Source: Chloroflexota bacterium (GTDB lineage Bacteria > Chloroflexota > UBA6077 > JACCZL01). From it: a stretch of DNA of 64,000 nucleotides. This document shows, in pieces, positions 29,711 through 38,052 of this stretch. Below the pieces are notes generated by a model. That model did no database searches, had not been told where the DNA came from, and was given only the letters and a program-made list of their open reading frames with translations. The position numbers and the translations under genes were made by a program. Position 1 is the first letter of the stretch, and the number at the start of each line of letters is the position of its first letter. Location: assembly GCA_020850535.1 (NCBI GenBank), contig JADZEM010000141.1, positions 1-64,000 of the forward strand, read 5' to 3'.

Positions 29711-29739
29711 TTGGCGAATGAACAAAATCCTGCTATTGT
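29711..29739 (+). promoter_or_regulatory. Promoter of the first Asp/Asn-rich gene
   Basis: TTGGCG (29711-29716), 17-bp A/T-richer spacer, TATTGT (29734-29739), about 64 bases before the ATG. It lies in a locally A/T-rich patch after the tyrS terminator. Confidence 0.55.
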
Positions 29740-29803
29740 TAGCCCGAATCTGCCCAATGTCCCCTTTCCGGGGGTAGCTGGGTCCGCATCGGAGGTGCGG
29801 CGT

Positions 29804-30616
29804 ATGGCTGCGGTTCGCGCGGTCTTGATCGCCATCATGATCCTGGCGATGGCGGTAACGCCGTTGCTCGTTCCGTCGTTTGGCGGCGGCTCGGACAGTT
29901 CCACCGCGTACGCTTCGTTCGCTGGTGGCACACGCACAGGTGACCGGTCTGTTGCTCCGCAGCAGAACGGGAACAATAACGACAACGACGACGACGACGA
30001 CGACAACGACGACGGCGATAACGACGACGACGATAACGACGACGGCGATAACGACGACGACGACAATAACGACAACGACAGCGACGATAACGACAACGGC
30101 GACGACGGCGATGACAACGACAACGACAGCGACGGCAATGACAACGTCCGAATCGTTGTGCAGTCACCGCGTGACAGCGTCAATCGGCCGACCAAGTGCT
30201 TCGACACGCGCGAGGTCAGCACGATCCAGCTCGGCACTGGCAGCTACGATGTGACCGTCCAGGTCATGCCGCACTCCAGCTTCGGCCAGACGACCCGGAT
30301 GACGCTCCGTGCGCTCGATCCGTCGTCGGTGCCTGGCCCGGGCTCGGCAGGCACGCTCGTGGACAGCGTGGTCTTCCAGCTCGACGCGCAGGCTGGCTGC
30401 GACGGCGCTGCCATCGGCACCCTGCCGAACGCCGTCAACCTCGGGATTGTCTACAACGTGACCAGCTCGGTCGACAAGGCCAAGCTGCAGATCGTCAAGC
30501 TCGACGGCAGCTCCTGGACCAACGTCGCGACGGTTCCGGACCCAACCGCGGGCAACCCGTACGTCTCGGCGACGATCTCGAGCGCTGGCACCTACGCGCT
30601 GATCCAGAAGCCGTAA
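29804..30616 (+). CDS. Exported Asp/Asn-rich repeat protein, paralogue 1
   Basis: 270 residues from ATG 29804 with GGAGGT seven bases upstream. Residues 5-25 are a signal or anchor (AVLIAIMILAMAVTPLLVP). Residues 55-114 are almost only Asp, Asn and Gly, with an internal repeat NDDGDNDDDD. Residues 120-270 form a beta-rich domain with two Cys (C132, C199) and the ending LPNAVNLGIVYN... SATISSAGTYALIQKP, which resembles the strand pattern of ZU5-like and bacterial surface modules. The acidic tract could bind calcium or other cations at the cell surface. No function is known. First of three paralogues in a row. Confidence 0.82.
   Translation: MAAVRAVLIAIMILAMAVTPLLVPSFGGGSDSSTAYASFAGGTRTGDRSVAPQQNGNNNDNDDDDDDNDDGDNDDDDNDDGDNDDDDNNDNDSDDNDNGDDGDDNDNDSDGNDNVRIVVQSPRDSVNRPTKCFDTREVSTIQLGTGSYDVTVQVMPHSSFGQTTRMTLRALDPSSVPGPGSAGTLVDSVVFQLDAQAGCDGAAIGTLPNAVNLGIVYNVTSSVDKAKLQIVKLDGSSWTNVATVPDPTAGNPYVSATISSAGTYALIQKP
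29966..30146 (+). repeat. GAC/AAC trinucleotide repeat tract in paralogue 1
   Basis: About 180 bp of near-uninterrupted GAC, GAT, AAC, AAT and GGC codons. It is in frame and codes the Asp/Asn tract. Prone to slippage by whole codons. Confidence 0.9.
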
Positions 30617-30706: not shown

Positions 30707-30811
30707 GTCTTGCTGTCGTGTGTGGGTACGGCGTCTCCGTCGTGGAATGCTTCTTGCGTCGGGGCGATCCTGAGCCACCTGCTGGCTCCAGCTCCAGGAG
30801 GATCCCGTCAC

Positions 30812-31612
30812 ATGTCCAGACTTCGTGCGCTCCTCATCTCCCTCACGATCCTGGCAATGGCCGTGGCGCCGTTGCTCGTGCCGACGTTGACCGCTGGCGG
30901 CCCCAGCAGCAGCCGGGCCTATGCCGCCACGGCGGGCGCGCCCGTGAGCCAGGACAACGACGATGAAGACAACGATGATGATGATGACGAGGACAACGAC
31001 GACAGCGACAATGACGACGCCGACAACGATGATGACGGCGACAACCAGGACGACGACGACAACCAGGACGACGACGACAACGACGACAGCGACAACGACG
31101 ATGGCGATGACAACGGGAACGGCAACGCCAACGACAATGGCGACGACGGGGATGTCGCGCCGGCGCCGGTCACCGCGGCCCCAGCAGCGCCGTCAGCCTC
31201 GGCCTGCACCACGCCCGGGCAGGAGACCGCTGTCAGCTCGGCAGATGGCCGCGTGTCGGCCCGCGTCTTCAGCAGCATGACGCAGTCGATCAAGCTCACC
31301 ATCGCCAGCCCCATCGATCCGGCCTCGGTGCCGCCGGCCCCCGGCGCAGTGGTTGGCGGTCAACTGTTCCAGATCGTCGCGCAGACCTGTGATGGCGCTC
31401 CGATCGCCGCGCTGCCCGCCGAGATCAACGTCGGGGTCAGCTACTCGGATGCGGACGCCGCTGGCCTGAACGAGTCGAACTTTACGCTCTCCCGCCTGGA
31501 CACCTCGGCCAACCAGTGGCGCGCCACCCCGAAGCAGGCCGCCGACCCGGCCGGCAACTTCACCTCGGCCACCATCACCGAGATGGGCTACTACGTCCTG
31601 CACCAGCGGTAA
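30812..31612 (+). CDS. Exported Asp/Asn-rich repeat protein, paralogue 2
   Basis: 266 residues from ATG 30812; AGGAGG lies ten bases upstream. The N-terminal segment (ALLISLTILAMAVAPLLVP) is nearly the same as in paralogue 1. Residues 47-114 are Asp/Asn-rich with Gln-Asp blocks (DNQDDDD twice). A Pro/Ala linker follows, then the conserved beta domain with Cys at 132, the same position as in paralogue 1, and Cys at 193. It ends LPAEINVGVSYSDADAAG... TSATITEMGYYVLHQR. The Cys pair probably forms a disulfide. Separate hairpins flank it, so it may be its own transcript. Confidence 0.82.
   Translation: MSRLRALLISLTILAMAVAPLLVPTLTAGGPSSSRAYAATAGAPVSQDNDDEDNDDDDDEDNDDSDNDDADNDDDGDNQDDDDNQDDDDNDDSDNDDGDDNGNGNANDNGDDGDVAPAPVTAAPAAPSASACTTPGQETAVSSADGRVSARVFSSMTQSIKLTIASPIDPASVPPAPGAVVGGQLFQIVAQTCDGAPIAALPAEINVGVSYSDADAAGLNESNFTLSRLDTSANQWRATPKQAADPAGNFTSATITEMGYYVLHQR
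30951..31158 (+). repeat. Trinucleotide repeat tract in paralogue 2
   Basis: About 205 bp of GAC/GAT/AAC codons, in frame. It codes the Asp/Asn tract of residues 47-114. Confidence 0.9.
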
Positions 31613-32063: not shown

Positions 32064-32840
32064 ATGACCCTCTTCCGTCTGCTGCAAGTCAGCGTAGTGA
32101 TCGTGCTGCTGTTCGGCAGCACCTGGGTCGTCCGCGTGCTGGGGATGGCCGCCGAGCCGCCCGGCAGCTCTCCAACGTGGCTGGCCAGCAGCACGGCGCT
32201 GGCCGGGGTCTTGTCGCAGAACAACAATGACAACAGCGATAACAGCGACAATAGCAGCGGCGACGATAACAGCGACAACAGCGACAACGACGGCGGCGGC
32301 GACAATAACAGCGACAACAATGACAATGAGAGCAACGGCAATGACAACGGCTATGACGACAACGACAACTTCAACATCGATCTGCCGCCGATCCCGACCG
32401 GCCCGGTCCGCCCGCCCGAGCCAGAGTGCGCCCAGCCGGGACAGGACACGACCTTCACCTCGCGTGATGGCAAGGCGACCGTCCGCGTCTTCGCCTCGAC
32501 GCCGCGCCCGGTCCGCATCGAGATCTATCAGGTGATCGACTTCCTCTCCGCGCCGCTGCCGCCGGGGAACCTTGTTGGCCTGCTGGCCTACGAGATCCGC
32601 GCCAGCTACTGCGACTCGAACCCGCTCTCCGAGTTGCCGGCCGAGGTCAATCTGGGCATCCGCTACAGCGACCTTGAGGCCACGGGCCTGGACGAGAGCC
32701 GCTTTGTGATCGGCCGGCTGGACGTGCCGTCTGGCGTCTGGACGCCGGTCGAAAAACGCGGCAACGATCCGTCGAGCAACTTCGTCTCTGCGACCATCAG
32801 CCAGACCGGGTTCTACATGGTCTGGGAGCTGCGCCCCTGA
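32064..32840 (+). CDS. Exported Asp/Asn-rich repeat protein, paralogue 3
   Basis: 258 residues from ATG 32064 (GGAGG 11 bases upstream). It has a longer N-terminal hydrophobic segment (FRLLQVSVVIVLLFGSTWVV). Residues 52-102 are rich in Asn, Asp and Ser rather than Asp alone. After a Pro-rich linker comes the shared beta domain (Cys 122 and Cys 183): CAQPGQDTTFTSRDGKATVR, then LPAEVNLGIRYSDLEATGLD, ending SATISQTGFYMVWELRP. This is closer to paralogue 2 than to 1. A clear terminator follows. Confidence 0.82.
   Translation: MTLFRLLQVSVVIVLLFGSTWVVRVLGMAAEPPGSSPTWLASSTALAGVLSQNNNDNSDNSDNSSGDDNSDNSDNDGGGDNNSDNNDNESNGNDNGYDDNDNFNIDLPPIPTGPVRPPEPECAQPGQDTTFTSRDGKATVRVFASTPRPVRIEIYQVIDFLSAPLPPGNLVGLLAYEIRASYCDSNPLSELPAEVNLGIRYSDLEATGLDESRFVIGRLDVPSGVWTPVEKRGNDPSSNFVSATISQTGFYMVWELRP
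32217..32371 (+). repeat. Trinucleotide repeat tract in paralogue 3
   Basis: About 150 bp dominated by AAC/AAT, GAC/GAT and AGC codons, in frame. It codes the Asn/Asp/Ser tract. Confidence 0.85.
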
Positions 32841-35233: not shown

Positions 35234-36304
35234 CTATCGGGCGACGGCGACCCGCGCCTCGCGCCGCGAGCGCACGGCGGCTGCCAGCTCTCGAATCACC
35301 GGGACCGTCATGTCCCAGCCCATGCACGCGTCCGTGATGCTCTGGCCGTAGACAAGGCTCTCGCGGTCCACCAGATCCTGCCGGCCGTCCACGATGAAGC
35401 TCTCCAGCAGGATGCCGACGATGCCGCGCTCGCCGTCCGCGATCTGGCCGGCCACGTCCCGGGCCACGACGGGCTGGCGTCCGTGATCCTTGCCGCTGTT
35501 GCCATGGCTGGTGTCGATCATGATGCGGCGTGGCAGACGGGCGCGTTCGAGCGCCGCCAGGGCATCCTGCACGCTGTCCCGGTCGTAGTTGGTGCCACGG
35601 TCCCCGCCGCGCAGGATAACGTGCGTGTCCGCGTTGCCGCGCGTGGTGACGATGGCCGCCAGCCCCTGCTCGGTGACGCCCAGGAAGCTGTGCGGGTGCG
35701 CCGCCGCCCGCAACGCGTCGATGGCCGCCTGCACCCGGCCGTCGGTGCCGTTCTTGAAGCCGACCGGCACCGACAGGCCCGAGGCCAGTTGCCGATGCAC
35801 CTGGCTCTCGGTGGTCCGTGCGCCGATCGCGCCCCAGACCATCAGGTCAGAGATGAACTGCGGCGAGATCGGGTCCAGGAACTCGCAGCCGGCCGGCATC
35901 CCGATCTCCAGCAGGTCGAGCAGCAGCTTCCGCCCGAGCCGCAGCCCCTCGTTCGAGCGGCAGGTGCCGTCCAGGTGCGGGTCGTTGATGAAGCCCTTCC
36001 AGCCGACCGTCGTACGGGGCTTCTCGAAGTAGACCCGCATCACGACGCAGAGATCGTCTTTCAGCTCGTCGGCCAGGGCCTTGAGTCGCCGGCCGTAGTC
36101 CATGCCGGCCTCGGGATCGTGGATCGAGCACGGCCCGACGACGACCAGCAGCCGGTCATCCTCGCCGTCCATGATGCTGACGACCTCGTCGCGCGTCTGG
36201 GATACGACGACGGACTCAGCCTCGGTGAGGGGCAGCTCCTCCAGCAAAATGGCGGGCGAGATCAACGGACGGATGCTCTCGATGCGAAGATCGCGGGTCT
36301 TCAT
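35234..36304 (-). CDS. aroG: 3-deoxy-7-phosphoheptulonate (DAHP) synthase, class I AroG/F/H type
   Basis: 356 residues, ATG 36304, AGGAA upstream. It condenses phosphoenolpyruvate and erythrose 4-phosphate, the first step of the shikimate pathway. Family signatures: VVVGPCSIHDPEAG, MRVYFEKPRTTVGWKG (the KPRT substrate motif), DPISPQFISDLMVWGAIGAR, GFKNGTDG and IMIDTSHGNSGKDH. The length equals E. coli AroG and AroF. The metal ligands (Cys in GPCS, His in TSHGN) are present. The leader carries a Phe/Tyr attenuator (36451-36643), so expression probably responds to Phe/Tyr-tRNA charging. The isozyme letter is nominal. Confidence 0.96.
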   Translation of the reverse strand: MKTRDLRIESIRPLISPAILLEELPLTEAESVVVSQTRDEVVSIMDGEDDRLLVVVGPCSIHDPEAGMDYGRRLKALADELKDDLCVVMRVYFEKPRTTVGWKGFINDPHLDGTCRSNEGLRLGRKLLLDLLEIGMPAGCEFLDPISPQFISDLMVWGAIGARTTESQVHRQLASGLSVPVGFKNGTDGRVQAAIDALRAAAHPHSFLGVTEQGLAAIVTTRGNADTHVILRGGDRGTNYDRDSVQDALAALERARLPRRIMIDTSHGNSGKDHGRQPVVARDVAGQIADGERGIVGILLESFIVDGRQDLVDRESLVYGQSITDACMGWDMTVPVIRELAAAVRSRREARVAVAR

Positions 36305-36450: not shown

Positions 36451-36485
36451 CACAACAAAAAAGCAGAGGGCGGTCCCTCTGCTTT
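36451..36485 (-). terminator. Attenuator terminator ahead of the DAHP synthase
   Basis: On the minus strand: AAGCAGAGGG, ACCG loop, CCCTCTGCTT, then a run of T (TTTTTTGTTGTG). The 10-bp stem is perfect (36461-36470 and 36475-36484). It lies between the leader peptide and aroG, about 150 bases before the aroG ATG, so it must be read through for aroG to be expressed. Confidence 0.88.
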
Positions 36486-36541
36486 CGGCACGACGGGGCA
36501 TCGGAGCCTGCTACTGAGCGATCAGTAGCTCCGTCGTGCCG
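36486..36541 (-). promoter_or_regulatory. Leader RNA hairpin overlapping the leader-peptide stop
   Basis: An outer 11-bp stem (36531-36541 with 36486-36496, CGGCACGACGG/CCGTCGTGCCG) encloses an inner 8-bp stem (GCTACTGA/TCAGTAGC, 36510-36517 with 36522-36529). The leader-peptide codons 10-19 and the stop lie in its 5' half. A ribosome at the stop codon or stalled at the Phe/Tyr codons would disrupt it differently. The exact antiterminator pairing could not be resolved by eye. Confidence 0.65.
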
Positions 36542-36570
36542 CCGCTAAAGTAGTAAAACGCTGTATGCAT
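36511..36570 (-). CDS. Phe/Tyr-rich leader peptide of the DAHP synthase attenuator
   Basis: 19 codons: MHTAFYYFSGGTTELLIAQ, stop TAG. Residues 5-8 are Phe-Tyr-Tyr-Phe, the end products of the branch this DAHP synthase feeds. It lies between a consensus promoter (36615-36643) and an intrinsic terminator (36451-36485), with an alternative hairpin beginning inside its coding sequence. This is the standard layout of ribosome-mediated attenuation. No strong Shine-Dalgarno precedes the ATG. The peptide is probably a regulatory cis element without function of its own. Confidence 0.82.
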   Translation of the reverse strand: MHTAFYYFSGGTTELLIAQ

Positions 36571-36614
36571 GGTGTTTTGGGGGGCGCAGGGCACGGATGC
36601 CCGCAGCCTTCGGG

Positions 36615-36643
36615 AGTATAGGCCGGCATCCGGCACGTGTCAA
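36615..36643 (-). promoter_or_regulatory. Consensus promoter of the aroG leader
   Basis: On the minus strand: TTGACA (36638-36643), exactly 17 bp, TATACT (36615-36620). This is the best match to the vegetative consensus in the window. Transcription would start near 36608, about 38 bases before the leader-peptide ATG. Confidence 0.85.
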
Positions 36644-36696
36644 GCGCAGCCGCAACGCGCGCTCGGCGCATCCGTGGAACTCGACGGGGAGTACCA

Positions 36697-38052
36697 ATGA
36701 CGAGACAGATGGCCCTGGTGGGCTTCATGCAGGCGCAGAACTGCACCACACTGCCGGCCGCGTGGCGGCATCCGGAGGCGCGCCCGGACTTCACCTCCCC
36801 GGACTACTATCAGCACATCGCGCGCGTCCTGGAGGCGGGCAAGCTCGATCTCGCGTTCTTCGACGACCGTTTGGCGATGCCTGACCTCTATCTTGGCGAC
36901 CACGCCCACACCGTGGCCCACGGCATCCGCTGTGTCAAAATGGACCCCGTCGTCACGTTGATGACAATGGCCATGGCGACCGAGCGGCTCGGGCTTGGCG
37001 CCACCTACTCGACCACCTACTACCAGCCGTTCCACATTGCTCGCGTGTTCGCCACCCTCGATCTGATGTCGAAAGGGCGGGCAGCCTGGAACGTCGTCAC
37101 CTCGGTCAACGACAACGAGGCCCGCAACATGGGGCTTGACGGGGTGACCGACCACGACACGCGCTACGACCGCGCCGACGAGTTGATGGAGATCGTGCAC
37201 GGCCATTGGGACACCTGGGAAGACGACGCCATCGTCGTAGACAAGCGCACAGGCCAGTTCGCGGAGCCGTCAAAGGTGCATCGGCTCGATCATGTCGGCC
37301 CGTACTTCAAGTCACGTGGGCCGTTCACCGTGCCGCGCTCGGCACAGGGCCATCCAGTCGTCATCCAGGCCGGCCAGAGCGCACGGGGGAGCCGATTCGC
37401 TGCGCAGTGGGCGGAGCTGGTCTTTGTGAGCTATCGGAGCCTGGAAACAGGGCAGGTATCGTACGCGGACCTCAAGAACGCTGCTGCCAGACGCGGCCGC
37501 GATCCAGACAGCATGAAGATCACGACCCTGATCTACCCGATCATCGGCGAGACCCTCGCAGAGGCCGAGGACAAGCGGGCGCTCTACGACACCTTGCCGA
37601 ACGACGTCGATGCGCTGTCCCTGCTCTCCGAGGCGCTCAACTTCGACTTCGCCCGGAAAGGTCTGGACGAGCCGTTCACCGACGAGGAGATCGCGGGCAT
37701 CGCCGGGATGCAGGGCATGCGCGACCGCGTCTTGCAGGTGACCGGCAACCCGAACCCGACCCCGCGCGACTTCATGCAGGCGACGGGCCGTGGCAAGCTG
37801 GAGCACCCCTGGGTGGGCGGCCCCAGGGAGCTTGCGGACCAGTTGGAGGCGTGGTTCGAGGGACGGGCCTGCGACGGCTTCGTGATCGGCCCGACCCACC
37901 TGCCGGGCACGTTCGAGGACTTCGTTCGCCTGGTGATCCCCGAGCTCCAACGGCGCGGTCTGTTCCGCACCGAGTACACGGGCGTCACCCTGCGCGACCA
38001 TCTGGGGTTGGCCCGCCCCGACATCGGCTCCTGGCGGCACGCGGCAGAGTGA
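36697..38052 (+). CDS. LLM-class flavin-dependent monooxygenase (NtaA/SnaA/DszA family)
   Basis: 451 residues from ATG 36697 with GGGGAG upstream. It belongs to the nitrilotriacetate monooxygenase-like branch of the bacterial luciferase family: LDLAFFDDRLAM, ATERLGLGATYSTTYYQPFH, SKGRAAWNVVTSVNDNEARN and HPVVIQAGQSARGSRFAAQW are characteristic. These are FMNH2-dependent two-component enzymes that hydroxylate or cleave C-N and C-S bonds; a flavin reductase partner is needed (the FMN reductase at 61420 is a distant candidate). Divergent from the aroG leader. Confidence 0.93.
   Translation: MTRQMALVGFMQAQNCTTLPAAWRHPEARPDFTSPDYYQHIARVLEAGKLDLAFFDDRLAMPDLYLGDHAHTVAHGIRCVKMDPVVTLMTMAMATERLGLGATYSTTYYQPFHIARVFATLDLMSKGRAAWNVVTSVNDNEARNMGLDGVTDHDTRYDRADELMEIVHGHWDTWEDDAIVVDKRTGQFAEPSKVHRLDHVGPYFKSRGPFTVPRSAQGHPVVIQAGQSARGSRFAAQWAELVFVSYRSLETGQVSYADLKNAAARRGRDPDSMKITTLIYPIIGETLAEAEDKRALYDTLPNDVDALSLLSEALNFDFARKGLDEPFTDEEIAGIAGMQGMRDRVLQVTGNPNPTPRDFMQATGRGKLEHPWVGGPRELADQLEAWFEGRACDGFVIGPTHLPGTFEDFVRLVIPELQRRGLFRTEYTGVTLRDHLGLARPDIGSWRHAAE

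Follow-up and report, generated by a model that had tools for sequence, protein, structure and literature searches.

The window analyzed here, a stretch of 64,000 nucleotides of Chloroflexota DNA, harbors upstream of a DAHP synthase gene an element that, judged against Rfam 15 and the searchable literature, belongs to a Chloroflexota RNA family that has not been described before and that mainly controls DAHP synthase genes. The element is very likely a ribosome-mediated transcription attenuator that senses the charging of tRNA-Phe (and tRNA-Tyr). Comparison among family members supports the leader peptide, its codon specificity, the nested hairpin (H1), the terminator, the geometry of these parts and the lack of a detectable antiterminator; the response of the element to starvation is what we infer. 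An earlier note on this DNA had proposed a Phe/Tyr leader attenuator that controls DAHP synthase in a Chloroflexota-like genome. This proposal is supported and the locus is real, although the note understated its scope: the element belongs to a phylum-wide RNA family found on several aromatic genes.

All parts of the attenuator reside on the minus strand. The sigma-70-type promoter (TTGACA-17-TATACT, 36615..36643), located where the note had placed it and matching the consensus at 11 of 12 positions, is the single such match in 3 kb (0.2 expected) according to a promoter scan, which found none downstream of the terminator; both the -35 and the -10 elements are also kept in a second copy of the attenuator in the same genome (see below). 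A 5'-UTR hairpin, GGCTGCGGGC...GCCCTGCGCC, with a fold of about -14.7 kcal/mol, maps to 36583..36608, at the predicted transcript start; the GGCTGCGGGC segment is common to the second copy and similar in another attenuator of this kind, L004. The leader peptide MHTAFYYFSGGTTELLIAQ (36511..36570, ATG at 36570, stop codon included) consists of 19 codons, has homologous leaders in relatives and shows no clear Shine-Dalgarno sequence. Its residues 5-8, FYYF, are encoded by the control codons TTT TAC TAC TTT (36547..36558), of which the last TTT (36549-36547) is the conserved control codon. The hairpin H1, with the base CGGCACGACGG/CCGTCGTGCCG, begins within the peptide, 5 nt past the last control codon, and spans 36486..36541. 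Flush against it is the intrinsic terminator hairpin AAAGCAGAGGG-ACCG-CCCTCTGCTTT (36460..36485) with a U-tract of six T (36457..36462). The regulated gene (35234..36304) encodes an AroAI-alpha DAHP synthase (PF00793 / TIGR00034 aroFGH). Thus, the 19-codon leader with FYYF, the hairpin starting inside it, the terminator with its T-run and the class I DAHP synthase downstream were all recovered as the note had described them. The folding energy of the leader RNA in the window is -82.5 kcal/mol (z=-6.35), a value that none of 200 shuffled sequences equaled.

The same genome encodes a second, beta-type DAHP synthase with aroA downstream, and the second copy of the attenuator (L174:1318-1414, that is, G000:C217:101138-101234), with the leader MTNFWFYYFSGGTTELLTTQ, precedes these genes. 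In a local alignment, the two copies are 84% identical from the promoter to the U-tract and divergent beyond, and the differences within the element fall in loops and the spacer. The attenuator in the window thus belongs to a cassette that occurs twice in the genome. With the covariance model described below, exactly two attenuator sites were detected in this genome, an antisense echo aside, both before DAHP synthase genes; no aromatic leader was found upstream of pheA or trpE.

We collected the sequences upstream of 138 alpha-type DAHP synthase genes. In 12 of these, a terminator follows an aromatic leader, whereas dinucleotide shuffling predicts 0.13 such cases and the antisense strand yields 0. 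The 12 matches are scattered: besides the window and L004, which is from a different class of the phylum, they come from Anaerolineae and several Proteobacteria (L049, L081, L092, L095, L097, L098 and L107). The alpha gene itself is rare in the class to which the window belongs (3 of 29 genomes). L004 is the only other alpha gene that was found with the same attenuator element. Its attenuator scores 108-110 against the beta attenuators of its own family and 45 against the attenuator in the window, which scores 250 against the beta copy of its own genome. The closer affinity of L004 to the beta attenuators of its own family points to two independent captures: judging by these alignment scores, the two alpha genes, which belong to unrelated families, appear to have each taken up the local beta attenuator. 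Common ancestry of the two attenuators as alpha-gene leaders, which was also considered, was dropped for the same reason. Of the proteobacterial DAHP synthase genes, those of Bordetella, Stenotrophomonas, Devosia, Rugamonas and others (L049, L092, L095, L097, L098 and L107) are preceded by Phe/Tyr leaders and terminators with no Rfam match.

Beta-type DAHP synthase genes are present in 355 of the 400 Chloroflexota genomes. In the order that includes the window, nearly all beta-type genes that were inspected are preceded by a leader (for example, MIRRLYGYAYYFSPRHGEVPAVR and MLGSANWYYYFRCGMKELR) and a terminator; both the codons and the terminator are conserved in relatives, as the check proposed in the earlier note had required, so that the lack of codon conservation that the note had named as a refutation is not seen. 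An alignment of 13 elements was used for the covariation analysis and to build a covariance model. In this alignment, changes on both sides occur in 13 of 20 base pairs, amounting to 36 cells compared to 9 expected, and the covariation score is 0.461 against 0.181+-0.023 in shuffled alignments, no measure being matched by any of 500 shuffles. Compensatory changes are found in 5 of 11 pairs of H1 and in 8 of the 9 terminator pairs counted. This first model retrieved matches outside the training set, in other classes, located before beta-type genes and each with an in-frame aromatic leader, and a second model (R2) identified the element in 120 of the 400 Chloroflexota genomes (about 30%) at E<=1e-4. 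The window scores 88-89 bits with the family models (R1/R2), but it was part of the training set, so that independent support comes from the held-out members. Among the inspected cases, the element almost always stands before a DAHP synthase gene; the model matches L276, L304 and L305 are probably false, and for L261 and L254 the missing DAHP synthase call is explained by an artefact of ORF picking and by a contig end. In L204 (family f10, in the same class as the window), which is unmatched by the models, a divergent leader, CAYYFYRFFWYYAA, and a strong terminator precede a beta-type gene.

No family in Rfam 15, RF01859 included, reaches the gathering threshold on the element, and a search of mainly open-access literature found no report of an attenuator of this kind in Chloroflexota. 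The small RNA Atu_C8 was a candidate relative, with a sub-threshold match only (E=0.078). This weak match is the one point in favor of the possibility that the hairpins terminate a neighboring transcript or belong to some non-regulatory element, for instance a small RNA. We consider this extremely improbable, given the linkage to DAHP synthase in nearly every inspected case and the Rfam result; furthermore, the upstream neighbor, a luciferase-like monooxygenase gene (36637-38052), is divergent, so that no other gene ends at the terminator.

Strong comparative evidence for the sensing of tRNA charging, and the best that we have, is that the codon nearest H1 tracks the controlled gene. We read the downstream gene for 40 further model matches, most of which precede beta-type DAHP synthase genes, the leaders of which carry Phe/Tyr codons. 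The non-DAHPS genes with the element, in other families of the phylum, are two tyrS, two pheS and one tyrA (L280, L282, L275, L284 and L297). The two tyrS leaders (..GDYPYLIPV and ..GGYSYRIPV) contain Tyr and no Phe, one of the pheS leaders, MIRVHAPFSFATST, contains Phe only and the other ends with HHVHF, and the tyrA leader is TYAYWFYF. It is these swaps, Tyr alone before tyrS and Phe before pheS among them, that indicate that the codon nearest H1 follows the gene. In the DAHP synthase leaders of family f45 (L291, L306, L308 and L309), the final aromatic codon specifies Trp or Tyr, as in QYYYWWLCPPA; control in this family may have shifted from Phe to Trp/Tyr.

Each of the 64 members contains 2-8 aromatic codons. 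The last of these is TTT in 53 members and TTC in 1, often followed by AG, compared to a ratio of TTC to TTT of 80 to 7 in seven genes of the window. TTT might have been retained as a slow codon that makes a sharper sensor, or equally possibly by a constraint on the RNA. In a rival reading of the whole element, the promoter and a partially effective terminator would simply set a basal level of expression, the aromatic peptide being incidental. Many alpha genes indeed lack any leader, but a constitutive arrangement of this kind is highly improbable in view of the fixed place of the aromatic codons across families, the different amino acids before tyrS and pheS, and the preservation of paired bases by compensation.

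The geometry of the element is tightly constrained in the 64 members, as estimated partly from predicted folds and with the model anchoring the codon columns: the median distance from the last control codon to H1 is 5 nt (interquartile range 4-5), and that from H1 to the terminator is 0 nt (0-1). The linear distance varies from 49 to 83 nt, and in every member the stop codon is located within H1, 4-42 nt from its start. The control codons, unlike those of attenuators defined by the trp/phe/his-type criterion, do not overlap the 5' strand of H1. The earlier note had recognized in the window the textbook plan of attenuation; the aromatic leader and the terminator conform to this plan, whereas H1, starting past the control codons, does not, and an antiterminator, which the note had expected RNA folding to define, is undetectable in the 64 members. 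We compared the 5' region, the control codons, and the 5' strand, interior and 3' strand of H1 with each arm of the terminator against a null of shuffled segments, and no segment pair was favored over the shuffles (Fisher p 0.74-1). The same test detected the antiterminators of E. coli trp and phe, each taken singly, with p=0.012 and 0.020.

These results bear on a canonical, trp/phe-type mechanism, in which stalling of the ribosome would unwind H1 and leave its 3' strand free to act as a weak antiterminator by pairing with the 5' arm of the terminator. In the window, masking of the 5' strand of H1 allows CCCCGUCGUGC to pair with GCAGAGGG (about -8 kcal/mol), and canonical antiterminators do occur before other DAHP synthase genes (L030, L049 and L097, p=0.002-0.004). 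Across the 64 members, however, the pairing of the H1 3' strand is no better than that of shuffled strands (Fisher p=0.996 and 0.998), all other upstream segments are null against either terminator arm under a test that the E. coli controls pass, and most of H1 stays paired when a ribosome occupies the control codon. We therefore regard the canonical mechanism as unlikely, while giving it appreciable weight. Two specific candidates were rejected: for the window pairing just described, 40% of shuffled strands pair equally well and the family-wide test is negative, and the control codons CUACUUU can pair with the terminator arm in 77% of cells, but no better than shuffles do (Fisher 0.999). Weak or transient pairings other than H1 and the terminator may nevertheless form.

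The mechanism that we favor dispenses with the antiterminator. In the default state, transcription would terminate at 36460. When Phe and Tyr are ample, the ribosome would run to the stop codon within H1 and open this hairpin, ending at least 26 nt before the end of H1, so that the terminator would fold and transcription would stop. When Phe-tRNA is scarce, the ribosome would stall with UUU (36549-36547) in the A site, and H1, starting 5 nt on, would fold against the mRNA entry of the stalled ribosome; ribosome structures indicate that, with the codon in the A site, a hairpin that begins after a spacer of about 5 nt sits at the mRNA entry. With the terminator 0-1 nt past H1, its base would come to lie next to the stalled ribosome, which would sterically hinder terminator folding, allowing RNA polymerase to read into the gene. 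The steric step taken by itself, with the ribosome blocking the terminator, is a tentative proposal modeled on the geometry, and we know of no precedent for such a block of a terminator by a stalled ribosome via a hairpin. With somewhat less than even confidence, we put forward the more general reading that this is an antiterminator-free, phylum-wide family of attenuators, in which H1, set flush between ribosome and terminator, would remove about 45-75 nt of distance such that the ribosome itself blocks the terminator, and that the cassette passes from one isozyme gene to another, a change of control codon (Phe, Tyr or Trp) serving to re-tune it.

The closest known counterpart in plan is the aroR-aroF attenuator of Corynebacterium glutamicum (Neshat et al. 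2014), which bears out the statement of the earlier note that a Phe/Tyr leader before a DAHP synthase gene is known in Corynebacterium. There, a Phe-Tyr-Phe leader precedes aroF, and the attenuator is reported to respond to limitation for Phe and not for Tyr (PMC11802643, PMC4046766). The likeness, attenuation of a DAHP synthase gene by way of an aromatic leader, appears to be one of plan only, in a different phylum; the Phe-only response reported there is what the UUU control codon would predict for the Chloroflexota element. The candidate motif uORFC-13-1, reported before aroF only from Acholeplasma and environmental sequences, shares, by its description, the promoter, a short uORF with a Phe codon, a structure and a terminator before a DAHP synthase gene (PMC8632094). 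The E. coli pheL-pheA and pheS attenuators (Rfam Phe_leader, RF01859) resemble the element in their Phe codons, hairpin and terminator and control Phe biosynthesis and pheST; pheL, however, has an antiterminator (p=0.020), in contrast to the Chloroflexota element, which has no detectable one and no gathering-level Rfam match. Within the same phylum, the alpha-type DAHP synthase genes of Anaerolineae family f35 (L018-L021, L023, L147 and L149-L153) are preceded by a well-conserved aromatic leader (GYFWFSYFAVGKG.LLARGFETTGR) and a terminator, with a sequence unrelated to that of the element. There, H1 and the control codons overlap, and an antiterminator is predicted for the consensus, single members not being significant; this attenuator is apparently canonical.

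For Chloroflexota, a deep phylum in which little RNA regulation is known, these observations add a conserved, codon-programmed aromatic regulon (DAHP synthase, pheS, tyrS and tyrA) and a regulatory cassette that appears to have been captured twice, independently, by alpha isozyme genes. Should the steric step prove true, attenuation would be possible without competition between two RNA folds, and the module would be simple to evolve and to engineer. Elsewhere in the window, three consecutive proteins (29711-30616, 30710-31612 and 32064-32840) contain long Asp/Asn-rich tracts and similar C-terminal parts and are apparently tandem paralogues.
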